From: Peribacillus sp. ACCC06369
Lineage (GTDB): Bacteria; Bacillota; Bacilli; Bacillales; DSM-1321
Direction of reading: 5' to 3'
Assembly (NCBI RefSeq): GCF_030348945.1
Contig: NZ_JAUCEN010000002.1
Location: forward strand, 2,852,001 to 2,916,000
DNA: 64,000 bases
The notes under the pieces are model-generated. The model saw nothing but the letters and a program-made list of their open reading frames with translations. It had not been told where the DNA came from and did no database searches. A program made the position numbers and the translations under genes. Numbering within the stretch: position 1 is the first letter of the stretch; the number at the start of each line of letters is the position of its first letter. Below are positions 45,073 to 64,000 of this stretch, piece by piece.

Positions 45073-45097
45073 TTTGTCCCCTCCTTATCATGGGTGA

Positions 45098-45120
45098 TGA
45101 CGTTCAAAGAGCAAACGTCA
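45098..45120. promoter_or_regulatory. Inverted repeat upstream of uxaA
   Basis: TGACGTT (45098-45104) and AACGTCA (45114-45120), 9 bp apart, with a further ACGTTT right after. It lies 26-48 bp before the uxaA start codon in the uxaA/araC divergent region. It may be an operator, perhaps for the AraC-type protein or another repressor. Confidence 0.4.
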
Positions 45121-45271
45121 ATACGTTTAGAAAGCCCTTTCATTTTTGTGTTTAAATATACTTTCTATTGAATCTATTATCATTTTAACATCAATATTTG
45201 AAATATAAATTGCATATTTTGCTATAAATATACTCATTCTTGTTGTATTATACTTTCAGGAGCTGAACGAA

Positions 45272-46141: not shown

Positions 46142-46192
46142 GATGGTAAAATTCATGTCTGATAAACATGGAAAAATATCGATCAATTAAAA

Positions 46193-46240
46193 ATGGAAGT
46201 GTCTTCCCTTGATATTTCCTTTGGGAGACACTTCCATTCT
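46193..46240. terminator. Terminator between convergent araC-type and MFS genes
   Basis: ATGGAAGTGTCT (46193-46204) pairs exactly with AGACACTTCCAT (46226-46237), extended by TCCC/GGGA. T-runs on both sides suit both directions. Confidence 0.85.
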
Positions 46241-46249
46241 AACAATCTA

Positions 46250-47491: not shown

Positions 47492-47583
47492 AAAGTACCC
47501 CCCTATACGCTTCAATAAATGCAGACGCATTTTTGGAAACGTTTCCATTTAATAACCAAGAGTAAAGCCTATATGACCTATAA

Positions 47584-47597
47584 CTAAATCGGTTTAG
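47584..47597. promoter_or_regulatory. LacI-type operator of the MFS gene
   Basis: CTAAATCGGTTTAG: a near-perfect 14-bp palindrome centred on CG, differing by one base from the palindrome at 54489 before kdgK. Expected target of the LacI-family regulator encoded just upstream. Confidence 0.65.
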
Positions 47598-47637
47598 AAT
47601 TCCCGCAATTAAGCGCTTTCTTTTTCACGGGAATTCT
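47596..47637. promoter_or_regulatory. Stem with cre-like loop after the LacI gene
   Basis: AGAATTCCCG (47596-47605) and CGGGAATTCT (47628-47637) are exact complements. The loop holds ATTAAGCGCTTTCT (47608-47621), similar to a CcpA cre site. Without a T-run it is a weak terminator at best; carbon-catabolite control of the MFS gene is possible. Confidence 0.4.
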
Positions 47638-47648
47638 TACATCCGGTT

Positions 47649-48656
47649 CTAACAAGAATTCCTTGAAAGCAAAGTCGGTTTCAAGCGATGGACACTTGTA
47701 TCCTCATTTCCTGTTTTATTGATTTGACTAAGCAGTAACTCTGCTGCCAAGTTGGCCATTTCAATGGCTGGCTGATTAACCGTTGTGATGGTCGGTGTAT
47801 AGAAACTGGCATACGGTACATCATCGATTCCTATGACCGCTATGTCATCAGGTATGTTGATTTCGTGCTGTTTCATATAACGCAATACCTCATTAAGGAC
47901 GATATCATTTCCTGCCAATATGGCTTGAGGCGGCTTTTCCAATTCGAAAAATTCTGAAAGTGCATTCGGGATTTCATCTACGTTCACTGTTTTAATATAT
48001 TCAGAATTAAATGGTATCCCATGTGACGCGAGTGAATCCTTGTACCCTTGGATCCGTTCGATTCGGGGACTGATATCGCGTATTATTGAAGTGGTCATGA
48101 TTGCAATGTTTTCAAAACCCCTTTCAACAAACCGATCAATGGCTAACTTGGAAGCAAGGTGATTATCGAGCATGACTGTTGCAATATTTAATTCCTCGAT
48201 CGTCCTATCCATGAAAACAATCGGGAATTGATCACTCTTCATCCGTTTATATAAATCCAGATTATCCCCTGTGGGAAAAATGATGATCCCATCCACTTGT
48301 TTAGCTCTTAGCATTTCAATATAATTTTTTTCCTTTTCAGGATTATCATCTGCATTGCATACGATAATATGGAACCCTTGTTCATAAAAGTAGTTTTCTA
48401 TAGCTCTAATAACTTGCGTTGAAAACGTATGAAGGATGTTGGCAACCACTACCCCAACTGTAAAAGTGGATTTTTGTTTTAAACTGCGCGCAATTATATT
48501 AGGCTGATAATTTAACTCTTCTATAGTTTCTTCAATTTTTTTCCTGGTTTTTTCACTCATATATTCGTATCGCTTGTTCAGGTATTGGGAAACCGTGCTT
48601 TTTGATACTTTCGCGTGATTGGCGACATCAGTAATTGTAATGGTTTTCATTTTCAT
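47649..48656 (-). CDS. LacI-family repressor of hexuronate genes (ExuR/KdgR-like)
   Basis: A 335-residue LacI-family protein: N-terminal HTH (residues 6-27; ITDVANHAKVSKSTVSQYLNK), hinge with ARSLKQKST, and a periplasmic-binding-type sensor domain (NILHTFSTQVIRAIENY, IFPTGDNLDLY, IDDVPYASFYTPTITTV). In B. subtilis ExuR and KdgR, both of this family and size, control hexuronate and KDG genes. Its position between uxuB and the MFS gene and the CG-centred palindromes nearby support the same role. Two in-frame ATGs (48656, 48650) follow AGGA. A palindrome over its own promoter suggests autoregulation. Confidence 0.88.
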   Translation of the reverse strand: MKMKTITITDVANHAKVSKSTVSQYLNKRYEYMSEKTRKKIEETIEELNYQPNIIARSLKQKSTFTVGVVVANILHTFSTQVIRAIENYFYEQGFHIIVCNADDNPEKEKNYIEMLRAKQVDGIIIFPTGDNLDLYKRMKSDQFPIVFMDRTIEELNIATVMLDNHLASKLAIDRFVERGFENIAIMTTSIIRDISPRIERIQGYKDSLASHGIPFNSEYIKTVNVDEIPNALSEFFELEKPPQAILAGNDIVLNEVLRYMKQHEINIPDDIAVIGIDDVPYASFYTPTITTVNQPAIEMANLAAELLLSQINKTGNEDTSVHRLKPTLLSRNSC

Positions 48657-48732
48657 TCATTCCTGTCGTGTTTTTTCATTTCTCTGCCTAAAGCCATAAA
48701 ACAATATGGCTTATTTATATAAGGAATATTTT

Positions 48733-48754
48733 ATTATAATTAGTAAAGCTTTAC
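48733..48754 (-). promoter_or_regulatory. Promoter and palindrome of the LacI gene
   Basis: On the minus strand a TATAAT -10 box (complement at about 48734-48739) lies just after the perfect palindrome GTAAAGCTTTAC (48743-48754), which occupies the spacer between -35 and -10. A repressor bound there would block RNA polymerase. Confidence 0.45.
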
Positions 48755-48854
48755 AATCACCTTCTGATGCAGTAAAAAAGTCAATTTCCCTTACCCTCGA
48801 ACTAATTGAATTAATGTACAATCGGTCACTTGATTGTTTTTTTTGGAACTGAAT

Positions 48855-49691
48855 TCAGACGCCTGAGTATGCCATGAAGCCCCCATCGACAGGTACCGTT
48901 ATTCCCGTGACAAAACCCGAATAGGATTCATCAACGAGCCACAGCAAAGTACCGAGTAAATCTTCAGGCTGACCAAAACGCTTCATTGGTGTCGCGGTAA
49001 TGATTTTATTAGACCTTTTTGTCATGCTCCCATCTTCGTTAAGCAACAGATCCCGGTTTTGCTTCGTCAAAAAGAATCCCGGAGCAATGGCATTCACTCG
49101 TAAACCCTCTTCGGCAAAATGGACAGCCATCCACATGGTGAAATTATTTATCGAAGCTTTGGCAGCACTATATGCTGGTACTTTAGTCATTGGAGCGTAG
49201 GAGCTCATGGAAGATACGTTTACGATAACTGGTGCTTCCACTTGCAATAACTCTTTTCCAAAAACCTGACTGGCCAAAAATGTACCGGTGAAATTGCTGG
49301 CAAAAACTTGAGAGAAACCATTTTCATCCAAATCAAAAAAGGATTTTCCTTCCGCTTCTTCCCCATATTTCTCTGGAGCTGTAATGGCATCAGGGTGATT
49401 GCCTCCCGCTCCATTTATTAATAGATCAACTCTACCGAATGTTTCTATTATTTTCTCCCTTGCATTCTCCAATGAAGTTCTATCCAAAACGTCTGTCGCG
49501 ATGGATATCGCAGCGCCCCCAGATTGTTCAATGAGTTCGACCACTTCTTGCCCTTTTTCAGCGGTTCTATTCAATATCGCTACCTTGACACCATGACGGG
49601 CCAATTCCACAGCCATTTTGGAACATAATACACCACTGCCTCCAGTGATTACCGCTACCCTGTTTGTTAGGTTTTCATGGATGGGAATCAT
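48855..49691 (-). CDS. uxuB: D-mannonate oxidoreductase (fructuronate reductase), SDR type
   Basis: A 278-residue short-chain dehydrogenase, the size of B. subtilis UxuB (YjmF). The nucleotide loop is TGGSGVLCS (16-24), NGAGG is at 93-97, and the catalytic residues are Ser161 area (VNVSSMSS), Tyr174 and Lys178 (PAYSAAKAS). It interconverts D-fructuronate and D-mannonate. Its ATG overlaps the uxuA stop (ATGA), so both are translated together, and AGGTGA sits inside the end of uxuA. Unlike the E. coli UxuB it is not of the long mannitol-dehydrogenase type. Confidence 0.92.
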   Translation of the reverse strand: MIPIHENLTNRVAVITGGSGVLCSKMAVELARHGVKVAILNRTAEKGQEVVELIEQSGGAAISIATDVLDRTSLENAREKIIETFGRVDLLINGAGGNHPDAITAPEKYGEEAEGKSFFDLDENGFSQVFASNFTGTFLASQVFGKELLQVEAPVIVNVSSMSSYAPMTKVPAYSAAKASINNFTMWMAVHFAEEGLRVNAIAPGFFLTKQNRDLLLNEDGSMTKRSNKIITATPMKRFGQPEDLLGTLLWLVDESYSGFVTGITVPVDGGFMAYSGV

Positions 49692-50764
49692 GATTTTTCA
49701 CCTAATTTAGTAGCTTCATATGCATCCCATAAACCTAGCAAATACATGATTCCCAGTGCTCTGTCATATAAACCGTAACCTGGGCGGCAAACTTCTCCCC
49801 AAATATGGCGGCCGTGGTCCGGTCTGACATAACCCGTATAATTTTGCTTATTCAATTCTTCCACAACACCCTGTATATTGATGGAACCATCTTGAGTATG
49901 ATGGGACGTTTCCACAAAGTCACCGTTTTCATAAATCTTCACATTGCGTATATGGGAGAAAGGTGCACGGTTTGCATACTTTTTAGCTACTTGGACCATA
50001 TCATTTTTTGGGTTTGCCCCCATCGAGCCTGTACACATGGTAAACGCATTCGACGGCGAATCCGAAATCGAGATCAGTTTTTCATAACTCGATTCTCCGG
50101 TGATGATTCTTGGCAAGCCAAAAATGGACCATGGCGGATCATCAGGATGTATTGCCATTTTTATACCGCAAGCCTCGGCAACAGGTAATATTTCTTTAAG
50201 GAATATTTCAAGATTCGCCCATAGCTGCTCCTCGTCCACAGCCTTGTAAGCTTCGAATAATTCAGAAATTTGATCCATCTTTTCGGGTTCCCAACCGGGT
50301 AAAGTTAAATCTGAAGCTTCGGTTACAGTACGAATTAAATCTTGCGGATCTAACGTATCCACTTTCGCCTTTTCATAAAATAAGGCAGTTGAGCCATCTT
50401 CCAAAGGATGGAACATTTCCGTCCGAGTCCAATCAAAGATCGGCATGAAGTTATAACAAATGACTTTCACACCAGCTTCCGAAAGATTGCGAATCGTCTC
50501 TTTGTATTTCTCTATATATATCATGCGATCTTCGTTACCCAATTTTATCGATTCATGGACATTTACACTCTCCACGACATCCGTGTGAAAACCAAATGAT
50601 TGGATATACTCGATTTCTTCTTTAATTTCTTCCTTTTCCCATACCTCACCAACAGGTTTTTGGTGTAGTGCCCAGACAATCCCTTTCACTCCAGGAATCT
50701 GTTTAATGTGCTCCAATGAAACAGTATCATTGTCTTTCCCGTACCATCTAAATGTAATGTTCAT
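49688..50764 (-). CDS. uxuA: Mannonate dehydratase
   Basis: A 358-residue UxuA, dehydrating D-mannonate to 2-keto-3-deoxy-D-gluconate with Mn2+/Fe2+. Conserved metal-site stretches are visible: VVESVNVHESIK, ICYNFMPIFDWTRT, GIKMAIHPDDPPW, FTMCTGSMGA, HIRNVKIY and YVRPDHGR. The ATG at 50764 is 6 nt after GGAGG; an adjacent ATG at 50767 is only 3 nt away. It follows kdgA by 12 bp and overlaps uxuB. Together UxuB and UxuA take fructuronate to KDG. Confidence 0.95.
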   Translation of the reverse strand: MNITFRWYGKDNDTVSLEHIKQIPGVKGIVWALHQKPVGEVWEKEEIKEEIEYIQSFGFHTDVVESVNVHESIKLGNEDRMIYIEKYKETIRNLSEAGVKVICYNFMPIFDWTRTEMFHPLEDGSTALFYEKAKVDTLDPQDLIRTVTEASDLTLPGWEPEKMDQISELFEAYKAVDEEQLWANLEIFLKEILPVAEACGIKMAIHPDDPPWSIFGLPRIITGESSYEKLISISDSPSNAFTMCTGSMGANPKNDMVQVAKKYANRAPFSHIRNVKIYENGDFVETSHHTQDGSINIQGVVEELNKQNYTGYVRPDHGRHIWGEVCRPGYGLYDRALGIMYLLGLWDAYEATKLGEKS

Positions 50765-50776
50765 CATGCACCTCCA

Positions 50777-51397
50777 TCATTCCGCAATTTTCTGCATGTA
50801 TTTTCTGCTTAACTCCACTGCTGCCTCATAGCCGCCATTCTTATAGGCTTTGTTCAAGTCACTGCCGATACCGATTGATACCGCGCCTGCATTCAGCCAG
50901 TCCTTCATATTGTCCAAATTAATTCCGCCCGTTGGCATGATCCTTACATTGGGCAGGGGACCATTAACCGACTTGATGAAAGAAGGTTCAAAATGGTTTG
51001 CCGGAAATAATTTTATAACATCACAACCTGCTTCCAATGCCATAGCCATTTCTCTAACTGTCATGCAACCAGGCATATAGGGAATGCCATATCGATTACA
51101 AAGCTCAGCAACACCATTGACAAAATAGGGACTGACGATAAAATTGGCACCAGCTAAAATCGCATGTCGTGCCGTTTCAGAATCCAGTACCGAGCCTGCT
51201 CCTAAAAGTGCATTCGTATTCTGCAATTCTTTGAAAGCTTCTTCAATTCCCGGAGTTGTGTAAGTCAATTCTATTGCCCGAACACCGCCATCCACAGCTG
51301 CTTTCGAAAGTTTTACTGCCTCCCCTGCATCTTGCCCACGGATAACAGCCACTACTTTCGTTTCCATTATTCGATGAATAATTGAATGTTTATCCAT
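50777..51397 (-). CDS. kdgA: KDPG/KHG aldolase
   Basis: A 206-residue class I aldolase of the KDPG family, splitting 2-keto-3-deoxy-6-phosphogluconate to pyruvate and glyceraldehyde 3-phosphate. The Schiff-base lysine is Lys129 (CDVIKLFPA) and the acid/base Glu43 (AIELTYTTPG); RIMPTGGINLDN is the phosphate loop. GGGGGT precedes the ATG. It completes the pathway together with kdgK in the same operon. A decayed relative of this enzyme is found at 59.9 kb. Confidence 0.94.
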   Translation of the reverse strand: MDKHSIIHRIMETKVVAVIRGQDAGEAVKLSKAAVDGGVRAIELTYTTPGIEEAFKELQNTNALLGAGSVLDSETARHAILAGANFIVSPYFVNGVAELCNRYGIPYMPGCMTVREMAMALEAGCDVIKLFPANHFEPSFIKSVNGPLPNVRIMPTGGINLDNMKDWLNAGAVSIGIGSDLNKAYKNGGYEAAVELSRKYMQKIAE

Positions 51398-51410
51398 AAC
51401 TCATACCCCC

Positions 51411-52430
51411 TTAATTAAAAACGATGATCGCTTTTCGAACTTGTTCTGGATGATTTTCAACAAAATTAAATGCCTCTTGGATATCATCGAGTGAAAATGT
51501 ATGGGTAACTAAACCTTCATGTCTTAGTCTGCCTTCATTTAACAGCTTGACCACTTTTGGGAACTGGTTGGTTTGCAATCTAGATCCTTTTACCGATACT
51601 TCCTTTTTAGTGATTGGCAGCTGGGAAACGGATGCAGGACGTTCATCAAAACCCAGTACGACAATCCGGCCAGCCGTTGATACGACATCGAATGACAATT
51701 CAAATGTCATCGGCAAGCATACTGCATCAATGACGACGTTGGCCCCTTCGCCCTTCGTCCATTCCTGTACTCGCTTTTGAACATCTTCTTTTCCCGCATG
51801 GACGGTAATATCGGCGCCGCTTACTTTAGCGAATTCCAAACGCTCATCACTTAAATCCGTGATCATCACTGATGCACCTTGAAGCTTTGCCATCTTTAAT
51901 ATGCAAATCCCAATAGGGCCTGCTCCTTGGATAAGCACTGTTTCCCCTTCCTCCACTTCGCCTCTCCAAACGGCCTGTGCGCCAATTGTATAAGGCTCAG
52001 CCAATACTATTTCTTCCCAAGTTAAAGCGGAATCCACAACATGTAATTGTTTCTCGGGAAGGACGAACCATTCCCTCATCCCACCATCTTCATGCACGCC
52101 AAAAACGGACAGTTTTTCACAAACATTTTGGCGACCTTTACGGCAAGCGTAACACTCCCCACAATAACTGATTGGCTCAATAACAACGTGGTCCCCCACT
52201 TTTATGCCCGCGACACCTTGACCTATCTCCACAACTTCTCCCGCTACCTCATGCCCAACTACCCGCGGCAGAGTTGCAAGGGGATTCGTACCATGGTAAA
52301 TATGCATATCCGATCCACAGATCCCGACTCTTTTTACTTTCACAAGTACATCCGTTGAGTTCGAAATCCGGGGTTTTTCCACTTCTTGAATGATAAGCTC
52401 ATGAGCTTTACGTACTTGAACCGCTTTCAT
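51411..52430 (-). CDS. Zinc-dependent dehydrogenase, YjmD-like (candidate L-gulonate 5-dehydrogenase)
   Basis: A 339-residue zinc alcohol dehydrogenase, the length of B. subtilis YjmD, which lies at the same place next to uxuA. Catalytic zinc ligands Cys38, His60, Glu61 (VGICGSD, VGHEVAG), structural cysteines 90, 93, 96 and 104, and NAD loop GAGPIG are intact. Family members beside mannonate dehydratase oxidise L-gulonate to D-fructuronate, which UxuB could use; galactitol-type substrates are also possible. ATG 52430 follows AGGTGG by 5 nt. Confidence 0.87.
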
Positions 52431-52439
52431 TTCTTCCAC

Positions 52440-53450
52440 CTACTTTGTAAGAAATTCATAAACACTTGCAGCTATCGTTATACCTTGTTTCAGGTTTTTT
52501 TCTTCATTGATTTGTTCAATCTCACCCGGTACATATACGCGTTCGAATCCTGGAGCAGGTTCAACCTGTTGCAGTTCTTCAATCATATGATCCATTTGTC
52601 CTAAAAATATATCGGTATCCGTAAAGAACGAAGGATTAATTACACAAAAATAGTGTCCCAGCTTCCGTTTCTTATCAAGATCGTCATACATTTTCCCAAT
52701 GTGCGGACCAAATGCCGCGCCTGCCAATAATCCAGAAAACACATCTACAATTACGGATAGACCATAGCCTTTCGGGCCGCCGAAAGTTGAAAGGGAAACG
52801 ACTTTATTTGGGTCTGTGACCGCAGCTCCATTTTCATCCACTCCCCATCCTTCAGGGATTTCCTTTTCTTCTTCACGCGCCTGAAGGATTTTCCCCCATG
52901 CAACATGGGAAGTTGCCATATCAAGGATAAAGGGTTTCTTTGTTTTAGCAGGAACTCCATAAGCGATTGGGTTTGTACCAAGAAATGAGGTTTTTCCTCC
53001 AAAAGGGACCACAATTTTATCGGTATGTGACATCGCAATGCCTATCAACTTTGCATCAGTGGCTTTTTGAACGAAATAGCTTAGTGCTCCGCAATGGCTG
53101 CTATTAAAAACAGTCACCATGCCCACTCCATTATTCCGAGCCATTTCAATCGCATGGTCCATGGCCACTTCGCCAATGACATGCCCAAATCCATCATCTC
53201 CATCAACCACACCGGTAACAGGCCCTGTCTTTTGGTAGGAAATCTGTGCATCGGGATTTATACCTCCTGCCAGTAAACGGTTTACATAATGCTCCGTTCG
53301 CAAAACACCATGGGAATTGACATTTCTTAGATCGGCATGAACCAATACCTCCGCGATTTTTCCGGCATTTTCTTCATTTAAACCCACTTTGGTCAGTTGT
53401 TTTATGACTAATCGTTTTGCTTCCTCAGCTTGTATCGTTACTGTTGTCAT
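52440..53450 (-). CDS. Malate/L-lactate dehydrogenase-like oxidoreductase, YjmC-like
   Basis: A 336-residue enzyme of the Ldh/YlbC (type 2 malate/L-lactate dehydrogenase) family, which also contains AllD and 2,3-diketogulonate reductase. Motifs: [19 protein letters not shown] (catalytic His near 48), [24 protein letters not shown] and [11 protein letters not shown]. subtilis YjmC stands in the equivalent place next to YjmD and uxuA, with no proven function. It may reduce or oxidise a keto/hydroxy sugar acid. AGGGGATAAA precedes the ATG; 10 bp separate it from the yjmD-like gene. Confidence 0.87.
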
Positions 53451-53476
53451 TTTATCCCCTCATTGCTTTCAGTCTT

Positions 53477-54430
53477 CTATCTTTCAATAACAGCCTCATT
53501 CTGTATGAAAGGCATTACTTCATCTAAATATGGTAAACCTTCATTGTCCCCTGAAACAGTTGTGACAAGAGCTCCTACACCATTAGCGAATGTCAATCTT
53601 TCATCGATGGATAGGCCATGAAGATATCCGTATATATAACCGGCATCATATCCATCCCCCGCTCCAACAGTATCTACCGGTATAACAGGGAAGGCTTCTT
53701 TTTCATGCCATTCTCTTTTTGTATATAGTTTTGAACCATGTTTCCCGTCTTTGATGACCAGCTGATCAATATCATTCAGTTTTGCAAATTCCGCCAATGA
53801 TTCTTCAGTGTCATTTCCAGTTATCAATTTTATTTCATCTAAACCTGTAAGCAAAATATCCACATATGGGAAAATATCGAAATAAACCGATCTCGCTTCC
53901 TCGATGGACCATAGTTTCAATCGGATATTCGGATCAAACGAAACAGGGATATTTTTTTGTTCCGCTATTTCCATCACCCTTTTGGCAATATCCACATTTT
54001 TGGGGTCTATAGCCAAGAAAACTCCAGTAAGATGGACTATATCAATCGCTTCAAACATCTTCTCCGTTATATCTTCCGGCTTTAAAGTCAGAATGGGAGA
54101 TTGATAACGGTAATAAAATGTCTTTCCGGAACCATCCTCCCGGATTTCTTTAAAGTTAATGGATGTTGGATATCCATCTACATAGGCAACATCACTCATG
54201 TCCACGCCTTCCCCGCGTGCGAAATTATATATGACTCTACCGAACTCGTCCTTGCCTAAACGGCTTAACCATTTTGCCCTCATGCCAAGCCTTGCACAGC
54301 CAATCGCAAAATTGAGTTCAGCGCCTCCTACTTTTCGCTCAAAACGGGTAACAAATCTTAAAGGTCCTGTTTCTTCCGGATTTAGCGTAATCATGGCGTC
54401 GCCGAGCGTTAAAACACCATATTTTGACAA
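53477..54430 (-). CDS. kdgK: 2-keto-3-deoxygluconate kinase
   Basis: A 317-residue PfkB-family sugar kinase, phosphorylating KDG at C6 with ATP. Family signatures are present: GGAELNFAIGCARLG near the N-terminus and PVDTVGAGDGYDAGYIYG near 240-258, with the catalytic Asp in GAGDGYDAG. The start is TTG 54430, 7 nt after GGAGG. It leads the operon kdgK - yjmC - yjmD - kdgA - uxuA - uxuB. Two LacI-type operators stand 59-93 bp upstream. Confidence 0.92.
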   Translation of the reverse strand: MSKYGVLTLGDAMITLNPEETGPLRFVTRFERKVGGAELNFAIGCARLGMRAKWLSRLGKDEFGRVIYNFARGEGVDMSDVAYVDGYPTSINFKEIREDGSGKTFYYRYQSPILTLKPEDITEKMFEAIDIVHLTGVFLAIDPKNVDIAKRVMEIAEQKNIPVSFDPNIRLKLWSIEEARSVYFDIFPYVDILLTGLDEIKLITGNDTEESLAEFAKLNDIDQLVIKDGKHGSKLYTKREWHEKEAFPVIPVDTVGAGDGYDAGYIYGYLHGLSIDERLTFANGVGALVTTVSGDNEGLPYLDEVMPFIQNEAVIER

Positions 54431-54488
54431 TACAGTACCTCCTTCTTTCGAACACTCAAGTAAAAAGTAAAACATGTGATCATACCCA

Positions 54489-56072: not shown

Positions 56073-56711
56073 TTAATTCGCCCAAAGCGCAAACAATCCT
56101 TCTGTCACACCCAATTTGTATATATAATAAAGACCGAATCCAAAACTTATAGCTCCCGCCAGTTTGATGAAGGTTCGGTTTAAACCGATATTCTTTCCAT
56201 TCAAAGCAAACGGTATGCCCAGTATAGTTGTAAAACACAGCATCCCAATAATCGTCCCTGCGCCAAATATAATTATATAGATGGATCCTTCACCTATACC
56301 GGTAACGGTAGACATCGTTAGGATGACCATTGCGGCACTGCCGGCGAGACCATGGACGAACCCAATTAATGCAGAAACCAAAAAAGGACGTAATCCATCA
56401 TGGTCGTTCGTGATATTAAGGCGGTCCTTAAATAAACTTTTCGCCCCAAGTATAACTAGCATAACACCAACACCGAATTCCAACGTCATGCTTAACGACT
56501 CCAGAATTTCCCCTTTCATCCAAATATACAGCATCCCTGTAAGAAACAGGGTACATGTATGGCCTATTCCCCAATACACCCCCGTTAGAGTGGAACGTGA
56601 TATTTTTTTCGTATTTCCTGCTGTGGTTGCAACTGCAATAACGTGATCCGGCTCTAACGAATGTTTTATCCCCAATAGGAAGCCTAATGTGAGAATCGAA
56701 ACGAAACTCAT
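56073..56711 (-). CDS. Nickel permease, UreH/NiCoT-like
   Basis: A 212-residue membrane protein with six hydrophobic segments. The helix-two signature His17-x4-Asp22-His23 (GIKHSLEPDHVIAVA) is the nickel/cobalt transporter motif HX4DH, and the length matches the short UreH-type proteins that accompany Bacillus urease genes. Here it ends an operon for a nickel cofactor, so nickel import for LarC is the natural role. ATG 56711 overlaps the larC2 stop (ATGA) and has GGAGGTGG upstream inside larC2. Confidence 0.88.
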   Translation of the reverse strand: MSFVSILTLGFLLGIKHSLEPDHVIAVATTAGNTKKISRSTLTGVYWGIGHTCTLFLTGMLYIWMKGEILESLSMTLEFGVGVMLVILGAKSLFKDRLNITNDHDGLRPFLVSALIGFVHGLAGSAAMVILTMSTVTGIGEGSIYIIIFGAGTIIGMLCFTTILGIPFALNGKNIGLNRTFIKLAGAISFGFGLYYIYKLGVTEGLFALWAN

Positions 56712-57184
56712 TTTTCCACCACCTCCCCGAGACACTTCCATACTTCTTCATACACCCGTTTAAGCGGTATTTTGTTTTGCATGGCAATTTTACGGCAATC
56801 TTCATATTCGGGTGCCTGCTGCATGGGCAAACCCTCATGGACCCCTCTCTTTATCGTCACTTTCCCCCATTGTGTATGCACATTGAAAAAAGATCGTTCG
56901 AGCCGGTGCACGGTAAGCGGATAGTAGCGTATACCAAGCGTCGTCGTTTCAGCAAATAATATTTTCTTCATTTTCGAAATCATCTGCTGTGAACAGAGAA
57001 GTTGCAATAACACCCCTGGTCGATTTTTTTTCATGAAGATTGGCGTATAATATACATCATTTGCTCCTGATTCAAACAGCAAATCCATTACATGTCCAAG
57101 CCATTCACCGGAAATATCATCCAGGTTAACTTCCATTTTTACCATTTGTCCATCAAGATGCTCATGATCAGGTGGGCGGTTCAT
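56708..57184 (-). CDS. larC: LarC2: C-terminal part of nickel-pincer cofactor cyclometallase
   Basis: 158 residues matching the C-terminal half of LarC, which inserts nickel into the pincer nucleotide in a CTP-dependent reaction. The segment VKMEVNLDDISGEWLGHVMDLLF corresponds to the ETNIDDM.GE motif that follows directly in one-piece LarC proteins. Its ATG overlaps the larC1 stop codon (ATGA), in the -1 frame relative to larC1. A split larC read through by ribosomal frameshift is described for Lactobacillus plantarum; here either frameshifting or coupled restart could supply both halves. Confidence 0.9.
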   Translation of the reverse strand: MNRPPDHEHLDGQMVKMEVNLDDISGEWLGHVMDLLFESGANDVYYTPIFMKKNRPGVLLQLLCSQQMISKMKKILFAETTTLGIRYYPLTVHRLERSFFNVHTQWGKVTIKRGVHEGLPMQQAPEYEDCRKIAMQNKIPLKRVYEEVWKCLGEVVEK

Positions 57185-58053
57185 TGAATCTCCCCGATGA
57201 TAATGCGAAGGACGTTCGGATGATTTTCAAATGTTTTTGTTCCCGCTCCATAGCCAATCGATTCGACAGTCATGGCTGGAAGCGAGCCAAATGTTTCAGC
57301 CAAAACCGCAGAGATGGCAGCACCGGTCGGCGTTGTTAATTCAGAACGAATATCGTTTGCGGCAATTGGTACCCCTTTTAATATTTCAAGAGTGGCAGGT
57401 GCAGGAACCGGATATATGCCGTGATCAATATGTATATGTCCAGACCCCGTGGGAATGGCTGATGACTGAACTGATTCGATACCTAGCTGATTGATTAAAA
57501 TTGCTGCGCCGATTATATCTATTATGGAATCTACCGCTCCTACCTCGTGAAAGTGAACTTTTTCGAGAGGAAGCCCGTGTATGTGCCCTTCCGCTTCACC
57601 AATCTTCCTAAAAATGGCGAGTGACATGTTCGATACCGATTCATTAAAGTTAGCCTCATTTATTGCCTCCACAATTTGTTTGTACGTACGGCTGCCATGA
57701 TGATTGTGAAGCACATGGCTATGATTGTGTTCGTGTTCATGGGTATGGTTATGCTCATGGCTATGACTGTGTTCATGTCGATTACTTTGGCTGTTTTCAT
57801 GACTATGTTCGTGACTGTGTTCGTGTTCATGTGGTTCCTCTGATCCACTGGTGAGAATGACATCAAATTTAGTACTCCTAATGCCATTTTTGACGACCTT
57901 CCCCCACGACAGAGTATATTCTTCATCTATGTTCAGCTTTTTTAACTCTTCTTCCATTTGTAAAGGATCTGCACCTGCATCAATCAACGCACCAATTACC
58001 ATATCTCCGCTTATGCCAGAAAAGCAGTCAAAATATAATGTCCTCATCATCAT
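57181..58053 (-). CDS. larC: LarC1: N-terminal part of nickel-pincer cofactor cyclometallase
   Basis: About 290 residues. The N-terminus MRTLYFDCFSGISGDMVIGALIDAGAD is the LarC family signature; VHFHEVGAVDSIIDIIGAAI and GSGHIHIDHGIYPVPAPATLEIL follow. Residues 75-119 are a His-rich insertion with 20 His in 45 positions (repeats of HEH, HSH), a likely nickel store. Three consecutive ATGs (58053, 58050, 58047) follow AAAGGAG; any may start. The gene overlaps the end of larB by about 26 bp and hands over to larC2 at ATGA. Confidence 0.92.
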   Translation of the reverse strand: MMMRTLYFDCFSGISGDMVIGALIDAGADPLQMEEELKKLNIDEEYTLSWGKVVKNGIRSTKFDVILTSGSEEPHEHEHSHEHSHENSQSNRHEHSHSHEHNHTHEHEHNHSHVLHNHHGSRTYKQIVEAINEANFNESVSNMSLAIFRKIGEAEGHIHGLPLEKVHFHEVGAVDSIIDIIGAAILINQLGIESVQSSAIPTGSGHIHIDHGIYPVPAPATLEILKGVPIAANDIRSELTTPTGAAISAVLAETFGSLPAMTVESIGYGAGTKTFENHPNVLRIIIGEIQ

Positions 58054-58798
58054 TGATCTCCTTTTTATGTACAAGTTTGTAAATAAGCGCTGCATTGTAG
58101 GCCGCACCAAATCCATTATCGATGTTTACCACACTTACACCTGATGCGCATGAATTGAGCATCGATAAAAGGGCCGATAAACCGTTAAAATTCGCACCGT
58201 ACCCGACACTTGTCGGCACAGCAATAATTGGATTCATGACAAGGCCTCCTAACACACTTGGTAGTGCCCCTTCCATACCCGCGACACAAACTGAAACGGT
58301 AGCACTTCGTATCTCGTCAATATGATCAAGGAGGCGGTGCAGCCCAGCAACACCAACATCGTAAATACGCCTGACTGGAATACCTAGAGTTTCGGCCGTC
58401 ACGGCTGCTTCTTCAGCAACCGGCAAATCTGAAGTCCCGGCGCATATTATTGCGATATATGTACCGTCGGATTTCGGCTTTTCTTTAACCCATGCAAGTG
58501 TCCGTGCAATCTCGTTATACTCAAAATCACTACATTCTTTTTGTACAAATACCGCTTTTTCCCGAGAAATACGCGTCACAAGCACGGAATTATTCCTTAT
58601 CCGCAGCGATTGGACGATCATTAAAATTTGTTCAGCTGTTTTCCCTTCTCCAAATACAATTTCGGGAAATCCTTGTCTCTTTTTACGATGGTGATCGATT
58701 TTTACAAATCCTAAATTTTCATAGGATGCAAGTTTTCCCTTTGCTTCCGCTGCAGTCAATGTACCATTTTGAACCTGCTCTAAAATGTCGTCAATCAT
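58028..58798 (-). CDS. larB: LarB: nickel-pincer nucleotide synthesis, NaAD carboxylase/hydrolase
   Basis: A 256-residue LarB. The family enzyme carboxylates the pyridinium ring of nicotinic acid adenine dinucleotide and removes AMP to give pyridinium-3,5-biscarboxylate mononucleotide. The C-terminal half (about 115-245) is a PurE-like carboxylase domain: IAIICAGTSDLPVAEEAAVTAE, YDVGVAGLHRLLDH, CVAGMEGALPSVLGGLV and IAVPTSVGYGANFNGLSALLSMLNSCASGV. ATG 58798 overlaps the larE stop (ATGA), with GGAAGAG just upstream. Confidence 0.94.
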   Translation of the reverse strand: MIDDILEQVQNGTLTAAEAKGKLASYENLGFVKIDHHRKKRQGFPEIVFGEGKTAEQILMIVQSLRIRNNSVLVTRISREKAVFVQKECSDFEYNEIARTLAWVKEKPKSDGTYIAIICAGTSDLPVAEEAAVTAETLGIPVRRIYDVGVAGLHRLLDHIDEIRSATVSVCVAGMEGALPSVLGGLVMNPIIAVPTSVGYGANFNGLSALLSMLNSCASGVSVVNIDNGFGAAYNAALIYKLVHKKEINDDEDIIF

Positions 58799-59610
58799 AA
58801 CATCTCTTCCTTTTCAAGCGTTATATTCATACTCCCGCTCTTATAGCCAGTGAGATCCAACGATACATACTTATAACCGAATTCCTTCAGCCGTTTCGTA
58901 ATCGCGACATGATATTGTAGCACTCGCGGCATATCAGCGGGTTCGACTTCAATTCGGGCCGTCTCCCCATGCGTCCGGACTCGTACCTGGTGAATATCCA
59001 TTGATTTTAAGTAAGCCTCTGACTTATCCACTTTCGTCAATTTTTCCTTTGTAATGATATCTCCATAGGCTATACGTGAGGATAGGCAAGCAAATGACGG
59101 TTTATTCCAGGTTGGCAAACCTGCTTCCTTGGACAATACTCTTATTTCTTCTTTGAACAAGTCGGCTTCCTGAAGCGGGCCCCTGATTCCTTTTTCTTTA
59201 GCAGCTTTCATACCTGGACGAAATTCGTTAGCATCATCAGCAATAACACCATAAATAATATTATTAAATTCATATTCTTCAAGAATAGGACGCAAGTGTT
59301 CAAATAAACTACTTTTACAAAAGTAGCAGCGATTTTGGTTATTTGCTGTATATCCAGGAATGGCTAACTCCGAAGTTTGAATGACACGATGGTTGGCGCC
59401 AATCCATTTTGATAGCATAAGTGCTTCATTCAACTCGCTCGAAGGATAGGTTTCCGAATCTGCTGTAATGGCTAACACATTATCATAACCCAATGTATCA
59501 ATAGCGACTTTAAGCAAAAACGTGCTGTCCACGCCTCCTGAAAAAGCGACCACAACCGTCTCCATTTTTTGGAGAATAGCCTGCAGGTTTCTGTACTTTT
59601 CTAGTAACAT
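58795..59610 (-). CDS. larE: LarE: ATP-dependent sacrificial sulfur transferase
   Basis: A 271-residue LarE. The PP-loop SGGVDS is at 24-29 and the family stretch NRCYFCKSSLF (Cys95, Cys98) and FACLSSRIAYG (Cys175) are present. The enzyme adenylates the pincer precursor and donates sulfur; in the L. plantarum enzyme one cysteine, placed like Cys175, is lost as dehydroalanine each cycle. AAAGGAGAAAAGTGCT precedes the ATG. First gene of the larE-larB-larC1-larC2-permease unit. No larA lies in the window. Confidence 0.94.
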   Translation of the reverse strand: MLLEKYRNLQAILQKMETVVVAFSGGVDSTFLLKVAIDTLGYDNVLAITADSETYPSSELNEALMLSKWIGANHRVIQTSELAIPGYTANNQNRCYFCKSSLFEHLRPILEEYEFNNIIYGVIADDANEFRPGMKAAKEKGIRGPLQEADLFKEEIRVLSKEAGLPTWNKPSFACLSSRIAYGDIITKEKLTKVDKSEAYLKSMDIHQVRVRTHGETARIEVEPADMPRVLQYHVAITKRLKEFGYKYVSLDLTGYKSGSMNITLEKEEML

Positions 59611-59742: not shown

Positions 59743-60025
59743 CTATTTTTCATTCCCAGCGCTATTAAAGTGACACCCATATAAACGACGGCAAGCTATA
59801 GTTTTTTTTACGTTTGCCGAGAATTTTTTTGCAGTTTCTGACAGCCTGGAGTAGTCATCACCTGAAATCAAATTCGCAGGATTGATCAATGAACCACCAA
59901 GTCCCTCCGCGTTGGCAGCAGTCTAAAAAAAAGTGAGGTTGTCAAGGTTGACACCGCCAGCTCGCATAAGCGTGATGTGATGTGAGGAAGCGGCCCTTTA
60001 AGATTTTTTTTGTTACAACGTCCAT
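59743..60025 (-). pseudogene. Decayed KDPG/KHG aldolase gene
   Basis: Leftward translation in pieces gives the C-terminal part of a KDPG aldolase: KKILKGRFLTSHH in one frame, then after a frame change RAGGVNLDNLTFF, a TAG stop at 59923-59925, and TAANAEGLGGSLINPANL, GDDYSRLSETAKKFSANVKK. This follows the PTGGV...GGSLV.P..L..GDY..I...A pattern of the family. The catalytic first half is gone. It lies between larE and the FAH gene, whose region it fills (59611-60046 has no other gene). Confidence 0.75.
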
Positions 60026-60046: not shown

Positions 60047-60910
60047 TCAGGCTATTACGTGATTGGAAAGCGTGCCGATCTTTTCAATACTGACGTTCAA
60101 CCGATCACCGTTTTTTAACCAGATTTTCGGATTGCGTCCCATTCCAACGCCAGGTGGTGTACCAGTTGCAATCAAATCACCTGGTTTAAGTGTCATGGAT
60201 TGTGATAAAAATGATATGATTTTCGGAACCGTAAAAATTAGGTTGCTGGTATTTGAATCCTGCATAATTTCACCGTTTAATTCAAGCGAAATCGCTAGAT
60301 TATGGGGATCGCCCACTTCATCATGTGTAACGACAACAGGCCCAAATGGAGCAAATGTGTCCGCCGTTTTGCCTCTTGACCACTGGCCGTCCTGAAATTG
60401 CAAATCTCGGGCGCTAATATCATTCATAATTGTATAGCCAAAAACATAGTCATTCGCCTCTTCTTCTGACACATGTTTCGCTTCTCTTCCAATGACAACC
60501 GCAAGCTCTGCTTCAAAGTCGACCTCGGTTGAATTAATTGGGATTTCAATCGCATCGTTATGGCCGGCAATCGCATTCGCATATTTTGAAAAAATGACCG
60601 GCGAAGCAGGTCGCTCCATCCCGGTTTCCTTGCAATGATCAATATAGTTAAGCCCGACGCAAATGATTTTTTCCGGCTGTGCAATTGGCGGCAGGACATT
60701 TACTTCTGACAGTCTGAATATCGCATCGTCATTTACCCGTTGCTCGATTAACTGTTCAGCACGTGTACGCAACTCGCTGCCTCGTTCTATGAATTTTTTC
60801 ATACAAGCAGGAAATTCATCTGAACCTAGAGCCGTTAAACTAATAATTCGATCATCTTGAACTAGGCCAATGTGCTGTTCGTCTTGTACGGAAAAAGTGA
60901 CTATTTTCAT
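60047..60910 (-). CDS. Fumarylacetoacetate hydrolase family protein
   Basis: A 287-residue FAH-fold enzyme with a short N-terminal domain and the catalytic core. Motifs seen: ICVGLNYIDHCKETG, PVIFSKYANAIAGHNDAIEIP, VDFEAELAVVIGREAKHV (metal-binding Glu pair), YTIMNDISARDLQ, and LKPGDLIATGTPPGVGMGRNP. Members cleave or hydrate acylpyruvates; in sugar-acid pathways they hydrolyse 2,4-diketo-3-deoxy acids such as 2,4-diketo-3-deoxy-L-fuconate or -rhamnonate. The adjacent dehydrogenase and aldolase genes favour such a role. GGGAGG precedes the ATG. Confidence 0.9.
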   Translation of the reverse strand: MKIVTFSVQDEQHIGLVQDDRIISLTALGSDEFPACMKKFIERGSELRTRAEQLIEQRVNDDAIFRLSEVNVLPPIAQPEKIICVGLNYIDHCKETGMERPASPVIFSKYANAIAGHNDAIEIPINSTEVDFEAELAVVIGREAKHVSEEEANDYVFGYTIMNDISARDLQFQDGQWSRGKTADTFAPFGPVVVTHDEVGDPHNLAISLELNGEIMQDSNTSNLIFTVPKIISFLSQSMTLKPGDLIATGTPPGVGMGRNPKIWLKNGDRLNVSIEKIGTLSNHVIA

Positions 60911-60924
60911 AATTCCTCCCTTTC

Positions 60925-61884
60925 TTACGTCAAAGCGTATGGTGTTTTTTCCCCTTTTAAGACCTGAACGATATTTCTTGCTGCTTTTTGACGAAGTTCA
61001 ACCATCGCTTCCTCAGAATACCAGGCGCTGTGCGGTGTAATAATGACATTGTCCATAGTGAGTAGTGGGCTATCGATGCGGACTGGCTCATTTTCTGTCA
61101 CATCAAGTGCTGCACCTGCAATTACCCCTCTTTCAAGTGCATCAGAAAGTGCTGTTTCATCGATTATCGGTCCACGTGCGGTGTTAATGATGACCGCATT
61201 TCTCTTCATTTGTTTAAGGCGCTCCTCGTTAATCAGATGGAACGTATCATCGATTAAGGGTACATGGACCGACAAATAATCGGCTTCACGAATAATTTCA
61301 TCGAGATCCATTTTTTGAACGCCGACAGCAGCCATCTCTGCCGACGATACAAATGGATCATAAGCAGCAGTTTTAAAGCCCAGCGGTTTCACCTTTTCAA
61401 TGAAACGGCGCGGAATGCGGCCAAAACCGAGAACTCCAACCGTTTGTTCGTTAAAACGATGAATCGGTACAGCCACTTTAAAGTCCCAGTTACCTCTTTT
61501 CACCTCATTGTTTAACAGCGTCACTTTACGTGACCATGAAAGCAATAGTGCCAATGCATGATTCGAAACTTCTTCCATGCCATAATCCGGAACATTGGCA
61601 ACCGTAATCCCCTTTTCTTTTGCCGCATCGAGATCAATTGTATTGACCCCGACACCGTAGCGGGATATGATTTTCGCGTTTTCGAGTGATGCAATTACGC
61701 GACGAGAAACAGGGGCATATTGATTTAGTATTGCGTCCGCATCCTTTGCCAGCTCAATAACTTCTTCTTCTGTTTTGCATTGTGCTTTAATAAAATCAAA
61801 GTCCAATCCGCTTTCTCGAAACACGTCTTCTTCATATTTCAAATGTTCAAATTCATAATCAGTTAATAATATTTTAAAGGCCAT
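60925..61884 (-). CDS. D-2-hydroxyacid dehydrogenase, C-terminal-binding-protein (CtBP) type
   Basis: A 319-residue D-isomer-specific hydroxyacid dehydrogenase. The Rossmann loop reads GFGRIPRR (about 154-161): the third glycine is replaced by Pro, a feature I associate with the CtBP-like bacterial branch. Catalytic Arg (NTARGP), Glu (TENEP) and His (TPHSAW) are present. It probably reduces or oxidises a sugar-derived keto/hydroxy acid. AGGAGTGG precedes the ATG; 14 bp separate its stop from the FAH start. The 75-bp gap upstream holds a CCCCC/GGGGG stem (61913-61931) without a T-run. Confidence 0.88.
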   Translation of the reverse strand: MAFKILLTDYEFEHLKYEEDVFRESGLDFDFIKAQCKTEEEVIELAKDADAILNQYAPVSRRVIASLENAKIISRYGVGVNTIDLDAAKEKGITVANVPDYGMEEVSNHALALLLSWSRKVTLLNNEVKRGNWDFKVAVPIHRFNEQTVGVLGFGRIPRRFIEKVKPLGFKTAAYDPFVSSAEMAAVGVQKMDLDEIIREADYLSVHVPLIDDTFHLINEERLKQMKRNAVIINTARGPIIDETALSDALERGVIAGAALDVTENEPVRIDSPLLTMDNVIITPHSAWYSEEAMVELRQKAARNIVQVLKGEKTPYALT

Positions 61885-61959: not shown

Positions 61960-62907
61960 TTATTTCACTGCTGCTTTTTCGACTTTCGCAATACCAAGTC
62001 CTTCAGCGCCAAGTTTCGATGTTTTAGCTTCTGGATAATATCGTTCAATCATTTGAATTCCAATTGCGGCACGGCGTACACGTTCCTGGGCGAGTGAGAT
62101 GTTCGTACTTTCCCATTGTTTCCCTGATGGGTATACGTCAGGGTGATTCCGAAGGCCAAACTTGATGTATACAGGCGCCAATGTACGGATGATTTCCGGT
62201 ATTTCATAATAGCGAAGAAAGCCGCCGAAGGTATCCGGCACTTCTACGTATAAATCAATTGGAATGTCTATTGATTGTCGGATCGCTGCAAGTTTAGACA
62301 GCGTTAATGCAGGTGGCACGTTGTAGGTATCCGCACCGATGTCTTCCATTAATTTAACGGATACTGGATTGGCTGGTCCCATTTGAACCGATACTTTAAC
62401 AACAAAATCTTCCGGGAGCTGTCCGTGTTTTTTCATCTCCTTCGTTATAAGAAGAAGTCCTTCATCCGCAACTAACGCACCGCGAAGACCAAGCGCCGCT
62501 CCTCTTTTCAGGTCTTCCATTGCATAAACAAGCTGGTCGGAGCCTTCATGGCGGATTCCCTGTGATTTTCCTCCCGGCGTAAGCGGTCCCGCACTTACAT
62601 CCCATGAACCCCTGGGGCCGACAAACAAACTCAGCTCCATACCGCGCTCTGCTGTCAATTCACACATTTCTTTAATTTCATCATCCGTTTGAAGCATGAT
62701 GCCGCTTCCTTGTGATATTCGGTGAATGGTCAATCCGAGTCGGTCAATTTCTTTCAGTGTTTCTTTTAGAGCAGCTGGTCCTTCTACACTTGGGAGTTCA
62801 ATGCGGTATTGAGCGCCATCTGGAAATGTTTTCGTTGAGGTCGGAAGTTCTTTAAGATCAGTTGATGGGTAGCCTAATTGTTCGAGCAATTCGCGTGATT
62901 CTTTCAT
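61960..62907 (-). CDS. Uncharacterised TIM-barrel-like protein, U32-peptidase-like
   Basis: A 315-residue soluble protein whose segments recall a TIM barrel: MELSLFVGPRGSWD, GLRGALVADEGLLLITKEM, FVVKVSVQMGPANPVSVKLMEDIGADTYNVPPALTL, IPIDLYVEVPDTFGGFLRYYEI and PVYIKFGLRNHPDVYPSG. Databases tend to file such proteins with U32-type peptidases, but no proteolytic role is apparent. Its ATG overlaps the stop of the DapA-type gene (TAATG), so the two proteins are made together, and the neighbours all act on sugar acids. A lyase, isomerase or epimerase of a sugar acid is conceivable; function unknown. Confidence 0.75.
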   Translation of the reverse strand: MKESRELLEQLGYPSTDLKELPTSTKTFPDGAQYRIELPSVEGPAALKETLKEIDRLGLTIHRISQGSGIMLQTDDEIKEMCELTAERGMELSLFVGPRGSWDVSAGPLTPGGKSQGIRHEGSDQLVYAMEDLKRGAALGLRGALVADEGLLLITKEMKKHGQLPEDFVVKVSVQMGPANPVSVKLMEDIGADTYNVPPALTLSKLAAIRQSIDIPIDLYVEVPDTFGGFLRYYEIPEIIRTLAPVYIKFGLRNHPDVYPSGKQWESTNISLAQERVRRAAIGIQMIERYYPEAKTSKLGAEGLGIAKVEKAAVK

Positions 62908-63815
62908 TATTGGACGCCTTCCTTCATGTCTAAAATTTTTAAAAGAGCAGCTACTTTATCACTCAAATCAGCAGGGTATACATCACATGGAGAACGGTGT
63001 CCAGCCGGCACGTCAAACCAGCGCTGATGAACGGCTTCTTTCATGGCTGTAAAAAATGTTGGACCGTAATTGTACACATCCATCAGTTTTGAAATCACTT
63101 GATGATATTTCTGTGCTTCAGCAAGATCACCTTTTTGATACGATTCATATAAATCAACGGATATTTCCGGCATAAAAACAGCGCTTCCATTGATGCTCCC
63201 CGCTGCACCAATCATTTGAGCCGGAAGCAAATGCTCGTCAAACGCAGAGAAGACGCGGAAATCACTGCGAACATTCTTCACTTCCTCCAGCACTTGACGA
63301 AGGTGGCCGAAATCACTGACCGTCTCTTTAATCCCAGTAATGTTTGAATGATCTTCGGCTAATTTTTTAATCAATTCGATTGATAAATTTTGTCCTGTTA
63401 AGAGCGGAATGTTATAAATGAAAACTTGCAGATTCGTATGATTCGCGACACTGGAAAAATGTCGGTATAGTTGCTCGTCAGATAGCTTCCAGTAATATGG
63501 GTTGACTACGAGAACGCCGTTCGCTCCATGTTCTTCAGCATAAGAAGTTAATTCAAGTACCTCTTTTAATGAGGTATGTCCGACGCCAACCATCACAGGC
63601 ACCCGTCCGTTAATGTGATTTATCATTTCACGTACGTATAATTTTCTTTCTTCCGTTGTAAGTGATGAGAACTCACCTGAACTTCCCATCAACAAAATAC
63701 CGTCAATATTCTTTGAAATTAATAAGTCGATATAACTTCTGTTCAGTGGTATATCTAAGTTCCCCGTTTCATCAAATAGGGTGACTACCGGTGGAATGAT
63801 GCCATGAAAGTTCAT
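62907..63815 (-). CDS. DapA/KDG-aldolase family lyase
   Basis: A 302-residue class I aldolase of the dihydrodipicolinate synthase/N-acetylneuraminate lyase family. The Schiff-base Lys163 (GIKETVSD), Tyr134 (FIYNIP) and the pyruvate-binding GSSGEFSSLT (45-54) are present. Among family members the sugar-acid neighbourhood favours a 2-keto-3-deoxy-sugar-acid aldolase or 5-keto-4-deoxyglucarate-type dehydratase over lysine biosynthesis. AAAGGAGGC precedes the ATG. It is the first intact gene of the group that runs left to the FAH gene. Confidence 0.88.
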   Translation of the reverse strand: MNFHGIIPPVVTLFDETGNLDIPLNRSYIDLLISKNIDGILLMGSSGEFSSLTTEERKLYVREMINHINGRVPVMVGVGHTSLKEVLELTSYAEEHGANGVLVVNPYYWKLSDEQLYRHFSSVANHTNLQVFIYNIPLLTGQNLSIELIKKLAEDHSNITGIKETVSDFGHLRQVLEEVKNVRSDFRVFSAFDEHLLPAQMIGAAGSINGSAVFMPEISVDLYESYQKGDLAEAQKYHQVISKLMDVYNYGPTFFTAMKEAVHQRWFDVPAGHRSPCDVYPADLSDKVAALLKILDMKEGVQ

Positions 63816-63835: not shown

Positions 63836-64000
63836 CTATTCAGCGATGCTCCCGACTTCATGACGCCAAATTTGGTTTGTCCAATCATGTCCGGTTTCTG
63901 CTGACTGCTTCAATTTTCCCTCATCAATCTCCAAGACCCGGTTTATCCGGAATTTTCACATAACCAATTCTGTAGTCTGATTATTCCGAATTATTTACGA
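63836..64000 (-). pseudogene. Decayed tail of an enolase-superfamily sugar-acid dehydratase
   Basis: Read leftward from the window edge, one frame gives SDYRIGYVKIPDKPGLGD then stops, and the next frame continues EIDEGKLKQSAETGHDWTNQIWRHEVGSIAE to a TAG at 63836-63838. The two pieces together make the usual C-terminus of mandelate racemase-type dehydratases (GYV.IPD.PGLG.EIDE...), so about five bases are missing at the junction, and a further TAA stands just before SDYR. It is 20 bp upstream of the DapA-type gene, as the dehydratase of the same pathway would be. Confidence 0.7.

Follow-up and report, generated by a model that had tools for sequence, protein, structure and literature searches.

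Lactate racemase (LarA) acts by proton-coupled hydride transfer and uses a nickel-pincer nucleotide (NPN) cofactor that is made by LarB, LarC and LarE. We investigated a lar operon of the soil bacterium Peribacillus sp. ACCC06369 that lies in a stretch of 64,000 nucleotides (contig NZ_JAUCEN010000002.1, positions 2,852,001 to 2,916,000, hereafter the window; contig coordinates are given as C2:position), together with a LarA homologue, LarA22, encoded past the right-hand end of the window. An earlier note on this DNA had described the operon as complete but without lactate racemase, and had suggested that the cofactor may serve a LarA-like epimerase of sugar acids.

LarA homologues (LarAHs) have been divided into 25 groups; 13 proteins were tested, none of them numbered 22 in Table 1 of that paper, and the gluconate 2-epimerases GntE1 and GntE2 were placed in groups 19 and 20 (PMC7583248). 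The NCBIfam name ‘group 22’ is assumed here to follow the same numbering. LarAH10 has gluconate epimerase activity without being a typical GntE, and C2-epimerisation of D-arabinarate is among the new LarAH reactions; the main text of that paper does not mention xylonate, pentonate or galactonate (PMC11770544). LarAHs with one histidine (PMC12611868), a route from mannonate to 6-phosphogluconate in L. suebicus, with a GntE proposal for Thermotoga (PMC6978723), and Routes I–III of pentose oxidation (PMC6336799) have also been described. That some genomes have NPN genes without a recognised larA has been noted as a puzzle (PMC11796402). No paper joining the Weimberg pathway with lactate racemase was found in the limited literature set searched.

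The Peribacillus locus shares features with several of these systems. LarA22 resembles LarA of Lactiplantibacillus plantarum (5huq) in its predicted fold, its NPN-ligand and catalytic positions and the accompanying LarB, LarC and LarE, but is only ~16 % identical to it, and unlike the L. plantarum lar operon the run of 20 genes that encodes LarA22 contained no recognised lactate genes. LarA22 belongs to another LarAH group than GntE1 and GntE2 (PMC7583248), and its run lacks a gluconokinase and has instead an IlvD dehydratase and a route from 2-keto-3-deoxypentonate (KDP) to α-ketoglutarate. As in Weimberg/Route II clusters, genes for a sugar-acid dehydratase, a KDP dehydratase, an α-ketoglutarate semialdehyde (KGSA) dehydrogenase, a regulator and a transporter occur together; unlike those clusters, the run has a built-in nickel-pincer epimerase with its cofactor genes and TRAP uptake, and no sugar 1-dehydrogenase or lactonase was recognised among its 20 genes (PMC6336799). 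LarAH32 of Geobacter is likewise a LarA homologue able to epimerise a C5 sugar diacid, D-arabinarate, but it mainly racemises 2-hydroxyglutarate and belongs to a different family from LarA22 (PMC11770544).

The lar operon and its predicted client

We propose, with a probability of about 0.7, that the lar operon makes NPN for one client, LarA22, and that LarA22 is an aldonate (probably pentonate) 2-epimerase which would let one dehydratase use two C2 epimers. The proposal builds on genes, gene order, conserved residues, a fold prediction and co-occurrence, all of them results of this analysis.

No larA was found within the window with the Lar_N and group-22 models, in line with the earlier note. 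A genome-wide Lar_N search gave one match (C2:2923737–2924240), on the same strand as the lar operon, in a genome of 5.62 Mb and 100 % completeness. The group-22 model found the same gene, larA22, and no other LarA homologue was detected in this genome by either model, although one missed by both is possible. The gene lies 7.06 kb past the right end of the window (C2:2916000) and 11.4 kb upstream of the lar operon, within the same catabolic run on the minus strand: DctP1, DctQ, DctM, DctP2, larA22, IlvD (734 aa), IclR, FAH2, SAF, UxaA C-part, an aldehyde dehydrogenase (ALDH), DapA, U32-like, PGDH-like, FAH1, larE, larB, larC1, larC2 and permease. Only two gaps in this run exceed 75 bp (261 and 436 bp). 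The lar operon is therefore not orphaned, and the idea of an orphan cofactor operon was dropped. The earlier description of a complete operon held for cofactor synthesis, LarB, LarC and LarE all scoring above curated cut-offs, whereas the missing larA was an effect of the window edge; such an edge, together with weak matching of Lar_N, can give an NPN operon the look of an orphan.

The five overlapping genes that had been reported were recovered as open reading frames, with overlaps of 4 bp (larE/larB), 23–26 bp (larB/larC1), 4 bp (larC1/larC2) and 4 bp (larC2/permease); the permease is a weak NicO match. The larC gene is split at 57181–57184 by an ATGA overlap, with larC2 in the −1 frame; larC is likewise split in the L. 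plantarum lar operon. A split larC was common among relatives, and a single open frame was seen in a few (e.g. G003, G050, G056 and G076).

LarA22 scored 556.7 bits with the NCBIfam model ‘nickel pincer cofactor-dependent isomerase, group 22’ (cut-off 400), and its predicted fold matched no structures other than those of the LarA family at E≤0.001. The NPN ligands R75, K184 and H200 and the catalytic H108 and H174 (LarA numbering) were all matched in LarA22; K171, H187, H93 and H158 were placed by alignment (E 0.22–0.3) and R61 by motif, outside that alignment. The NPN-ligand and catalytic histidine positions were invariant in all 94 sequences compared. These results suggest that LarA22 is a putative NPN-dependent member of the LarA superfamily. 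It was not accepted as a canonical lactate racemase, being a group-22 isomerase by the curated model: T159 and F161 stand where the lactate racemase signature has F175/F176, and the Lar_N score was 37.5–39.1 bits compared with 215–244 for strong Lar_N matches in relatives. The GntEs have E and V at these positions (PMC7583248), so LarA22 differs from the GntE pocket signature (E, V, A, H) in the first two positions, which are those covered by the comparison. Of the 29 matches from a PDB search with the alignment A1 profile, 27 were to proteins other than LarA (26 TAL repeat proteins); no single stretch among these passed by itself, and they were taken as chance.

Predicted pathway

Dehydration of an aldonate to a 2-keto-3-deoxy acid removes the stereochemistry at C2 and C3, so that a C2-epimerase acting directly before the dehydratase would widen the range of substrates used. 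In the proposed pathway the TRAP transporter would import the aldonate, and LarA22 with NPN would remove the C2 hydride and return it on the other face, interconverting two C2-epimeric aldonates. The IlvD/EDD dehydratase would accept one epimer and form the 2-keto-3-deoxy acid. The substrate would most likely be a pentonate of the D series, e.g. D-lyxonate/D-xylonate or D-ribonate/D-arabinonate. FAH2 would then give α-ketoglutarate semialdehyde and ALDH α-ketoglutarate (Weimberg/Route II), with a YagE-like aldolase as a possible Route I alternative. The epimerase and cofactor genes would form a module by which a single dehydratase gains a wider range of substrates.

The choice of a pentonate rests on FAH2 and on the minimal operons described below. 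Among solved proteins FAH2 was closest to 2-keto-3-deoxy-D-arabinonate dehydratase 2q18 (234.7 bits, next 70.2), a Sulfolobus protein. FAH2 was under the cut-off of all five listed NCBIfam models and the IlvD/EDD dehydratase under that of all eight, and ALDH passed the cut-off for KGSA dehydrogenase. The run thus has candidates, by sequence, for the sugar-acid dehydratase, KDP dehydratase and KGSA dehydrogenase of a Weimberg/Route II cluster, of which only ALDH passes a model. DctP2, one of the TRAP receptors, shares 50 % identity with DctPAm, a sugar-acid receptor of Advenella.

Gene order in relatives and the two clades of group 22

GTDB contigs were scanned with alignment A1, and the best 80 of at least 586 relatives were compared over loci reaching at most 10 kb to each side; 10 of the 80 were shorter than 19 kb, and distant genes are undercounted. 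Thirty loci with at least 64 % identity were designated clade A and 50 loci with 54–59 % identity clade B. Clade A loci carried DctP2 (26), DctM (25), IlvD (25 at E 1e-8 or 24 at E 1e-20), IclR (23), FAH2 (23), ALDH (19), UxaA C-part (18), DapA (17–18), DgoD (15), larE (10) and larB (8), and none had a gluconokinase. Three thermophiles (L089, L091 and L092) had a minimal operon of TRAP genes, larA22, IlvD, IclR, FAH2, ALDH, larE, larB, larC and DapA, that of L092 starting at DctP2.

Clade B loci carried a mannonate oxidoreductase-like SDR (41), gluconokinase (35), Gnd (29) and UxaC (9), and neither IlvD nor FAH2 was found in any of the 50 (E≤1e-20). The SDR of L144 exceeded the mannonate-oxidoreductase cut-off only narrowly (282.2 vs 281 bits); the kinase of L126 was over the gluconokinase cut-off (671.9 vs 648.55) and that of L144 under it (480.4). 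Clade B (L144, L126, L117 and others) is predicted to be a second gluconate/mannonate 2-epimerase family, leading from uronates to the pentose phosphate route. When 94 sequences were placed in a tree, the rows linked to IlvD (25) and those linked to GntK (35) each made up one side of a branch with support of 100/99; none of 500 label shuffles matched the observed separation, the 34 unlabelled rows being left uncounted, and one clade B locus (L129) fell on the clade A side. Several positions were fixed differently between the two sets.

It is unlikely, in our view, that LarA22 is itself a D-mannonate/D-gluconate 2-epimerase like GntE, with IlvD as a gluconate dehydratase feeding 2-keto-3-deoxygluconate (KDG) metabolism. 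The gene content of the sister clade speaks for such a role, as do the UxuA and mannonate oxidoreductase genes (the latter 430.1 bits with NF006132, cut-off 281) a few kb downstream of the run in the same genome, and the sugar kinase, 2-keto-3-deoxy-6-phosphogluconate (KDPG) aldolase and DgoD genes kept in the cluster by relatives. It is opposed by the mutual absence of gluconokinase from clade A and of IlvD and FAH2 from clade B, by the separation on the tree, by the differently fixed positions and by the minimal operons, which carry the KDP route only.

Co-occurrence in related genomes

LarC, Lar_N and above-cut-off LarB matches were each found in 33 of 101 genomes (this one and 100 relatives), the same 33 in every case. 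LarB of the genome studied also matches PurE, and LarB matches below cut-off in other genomes were counted as PurE-like. Of these 33, 29 had group 22 (above cut-off in 28; in G024, which is 87 % complete, in pieces), and in 19 the sole Lar_N matches were group 22; G056, G076, G082 and G093 had strong Lar_N matches and no group 22. Some relatives (G003, G009, G010, G015, G023, G029, G038, G042, G062 and G094) had two to four group-22 genes, with ~40–80 % identity to LarA22 where fetched and differing catabolic settings. The IlvD subfamily of the run was found in 21 of the 101 genomes (in G024 in part), all 21 with FAH2 and 20 with group 22.

Observations against the proposal, and alternatives

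A number of observations weigh against LarA22 as an NPN-dependent epimerase supplying IlvD with a pentonate, and they concern the cofactor, the gene linkage, the substrate and the uniformity of group 22. The 33 genomes represent 14 of the 55 genera, so they are not independent and the effective sample is smaller. A phylum sample comprised 348 genomes, of which 198 had LarC, 220 had Lar_N (above cut-off in 205) and 76 had an above-cut-off group-22 match (119 at E≤0.001). LarC was absent from 20 of the 76 group-22 genomes. This absence is not special to group 22, because 69 of the 220 Lar_N genomes also lacked LarC. A further 46 of the 348 genomes had LarC with neither Lar_N nor over-cut-off group 22; NPN clients and cofactor makers are often apart across this sample, and the link of LarA with LarC is weaker than in the 101 genomes. 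The 20 genomes without LarC, and the ~15 % of genomes with larBCE that are said to lack larA (PMC11796402), are what would be expected if group 22 were not an NPN enzyme and the lar operon served something else or nothing. We regard this as highly improbable, given the 33-genome distribution shared with LarB and LarC, the invariant ligand and catalytic positions and the lack of any other LarA homologue detected in the genome. Some ‘larA-less’ NPN genomes may reflect a detection gap: Lar_N gave no match in Corynebacterium glutamicum, the GntE1 species, or in Haloferax volcanii, where both group 22 and LarC are present, and haloarchaeal group-22 proteins are often annotated as ‘DUF362’.

With respect to linkage, six of the 30 clade A loci had no IlvD nearby, L097 has UxaA beside larA22 in place of IlvD, and in G029 IlvD lies ~70 kb from a clade A larA22 on the same contig. 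FAH2 relatives occurred in 31 of the 101 genomes, 10 of them without this IlvD. One genome, G092, has a TRAP-IlvD-U32-IclR-FAH2-SAF-UxaA-ALDH-PGDH-FAH1 cluster (L159), and no larA and no over-cut-off larB or larC was found genome-wide. The epimerase is therefore not needed for the pathway, and we take G092 as a natural comparison, in which the pathway would run on one epimer without the module.

As for the substrate, the cluster contains UxaA-type genes, and the long version in relatives keeps DgoD, KDG-kinase-like and KDPG aldolase genes in addition; these fit hexonates, which for this reason are possible substrates. It is improbable, however, that the UxaA-type (galactarate/altronate dehydratase-like) enzyme, and not IlvD, handles the substrate of LarA22, which would then be an aldarate or hexonate. 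SAF and UxaA C-part do lie in the cluster, UxaA-type genes adjoin group-22 larA in L097, L154 and L157 and occur near some distant paralogues, and KGSA dehydrogenase also serves glucarate and galactarate breakdown. Against this, IlvD, FAH2 and ALDH are retained in the minimal operons of the three thermophiles, and no UxaA was seen there.

Group-22 genes outside the relatives have mixed settings. Plasmid contexts were taken from seven of 113 matched plasmid records, with the Niallia record unannotated at the match. Group-22 proteins of alphaproteobacterial plasmids (43–50 % identity, over cut-off) lie beside IlvD-type dehydratases, DapA-type aldolases and altronate dehydratases. LarC is near the group-22 gene in Sulfitobacter (L154), and larB, LarC and an adenine nucleotide alpha hydrolase in Loktanella (L157); a mandelate-racemase-family protein adjoins it in Rubrobacter (L153), and two FAH proteins are near it in a haloarchaeal locus (L158). 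The group-22 gene of Haladaptatus (L156, 504 bits) adjoins an L-lactate permease and that of Haloarcula (L155, over cut-off) LUD-domain and DUF4147 genes. These two contexts fit lactate or glycerate better, and group 22 may include such racemases. The aldonate reading is limited to clade A because group 22 may not be uniform. It has also been cautioned that genomic context is not always a guide to LarAH activity (PMC7583248, 2020).

Other genes of the run and gene remnants

The coordinates of the run and of two gene remnants are given in Table 1. For the U32-like protein no NCBIfam match was found at E≤0.001, and the one match from a PDB sequence search was taken as chance. The remnants were identified by tblastn and blastn against four relatives (L045, L065, L066 and L069) that keep DgoD, sugar-kinase and KDPG aldolase genes at the corresponding places. 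Intact galactonate dehydratases scored 673.3 (L045) and 666.3 bits (L072) with NF010624 (cut-off 311). The L045 kinase belongs to the PfkB family (PF00294) and is nearest to KDG/2-keto-3-deoxygalactonate kinase, under cut-offs, and the L045 aldolase is of eda type (PF01081; 193.4 bits, cut-off 156). In L067 (G022) and L068 (G020), no intact DgoD, sugar kinase or KDPG aldolase was seen at these places either. The earlier suggestion that the epimerase gene was lost with decayed genes nearby was rejected, as the remnants are of DgoD, KDPG aldolase and the start of a sugar kinase, and none is larA.

Elsewhere in the window, positions 43567–54475 hold hexuronate/mannonate genes (galactarate/altronate dehydratase, MFS, LacI, mannonate oxidoreductase, UxuA, KDPG aldolase, zinc alcohol dehydrogenase, Ldh_2 and PfkB kinase). 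A search for cre-like (catabolite-control) sites gave 11 matches in the window, with none in 56073–59610, and these sites were dropped as a clue to the lar operon. A perfect cre-like palindrome is present at 47533–47548.

Table 1. Genes and gene remnants of the run, in window positions unless marked C2
Feature	Position	Strand	Description
NicO-like nickel permease	56073–56711	−	PF03824 (NicO), weak: E 7.1e-6, 26.0 bits, just below cut-off 27.7
larC2	56708–57184	−	NF052512 144.4 bits, cut-off 50; PF01969 positions 241–375; nickel insertion, C-terminal part
larC1	57181 to ATG at 58053 or 58050	−	TIGR00299 217.9 bits, cut-off 90; PF01969 positions 1–234 of 375; nickel insertion, N-terminal part
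larB	58028–58798	−	NF033503 309.6 bits, cut-off 175; carboxylase/hydrolase, NPN synthesis
larE	58795–59610	−	TIGR00268 357.8 bits, cut-off 150; ATP-dependent sacrificial sulfur transferase, NPN synthesis
KDPG/KHG aldolase remnant	59803–60025	−	Later part, split into pieces by frame breaks and running into the first ~14 bases of a sugar kinase; within the 436-bp gap
FAH1	60047–60910	−	FAH-family hydrolase like 2,4-didehydro-3-deoxy-L-rhamnonate hydrolase; NF053535 249 bits, below cut-off 500
PGDH-like	60925–61884	−	D-2-hydroxyacid dehydrogenase family, PF02826/PF00389; 0 of 21 listed NCBIfam models over cut-off
U32-like protein, 315 aa	61960–62907	−	PF01136 24.5 bits; in 16 of 30 clade A loci
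DapA-family aldolase	62907–63815	−	Nearest solved relative YagE (probable 2-keto-3-deoxy-galactonate aldolase): PDB 3n2x 245.5, 2v8z 244.9 bits
Galactonate dehydratase (DgoD) remnant	63839–64000, continuing past window	−	Within the 261-bp gap, between ALDH and DapA
ALDH to IlvD	C2 2916077–2922994	−	Outside window
larA22	C2 2923059–2924309	−	LarA homologue, 416 aa; past right end of window
TRAP genes	C2 2924334–2928352	−	Outside window

Implications

The reading of LarA22 as a sugar-acid epimerase, which the earlier note had put forward for the client of the cofactor, is well supported by context: the only LarA homologue detected lies in the same sugar-acid cluster, belongs to group 22 and is not canonical, and the setting is kept in relatives. 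That note would have counted against its own idea a canonical larA elsewhere in the genome combined with a lack of LarA-like genes in related clusters; the genome gave the group-22 homologue, and related clusters do carry LarA-like genes. The reaction type is already known for the superfamily; what is new is the pathway setting and the split of group 22 into two clades.

A wider reading is more tentative, and we put it at somewhat short of an even chance. LarA22 would be the first nickel-pincer enzyme of pentose-acid metabolism, a pentonate C2-epimerase. Together with its dedicated cofactor genes it would be a module that Weimberg-type clusters can acquire or lose (Peribacillus and other Bacillales having it, the otherwise similar cluster of G092 not), giving one stereospecific dehydratase access to both C2 epimers. 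On this reading at least two aldonate epimerases would belong to group 22, the second being a gluconate/mannonate family unlike the known GntEs.

Many groups of LarA homologues have no known substrate, and group 22, to which no reaction is assigned in the literature consulted, gains two testable predictions, each tied to a clade and a pathway. If they are true, growth on some sugar acids would be limited by the availability of nickel, and LarA22 would be a way to rare pentonates (D-lyxonate, D-ribonate) without an external redox cofactor.

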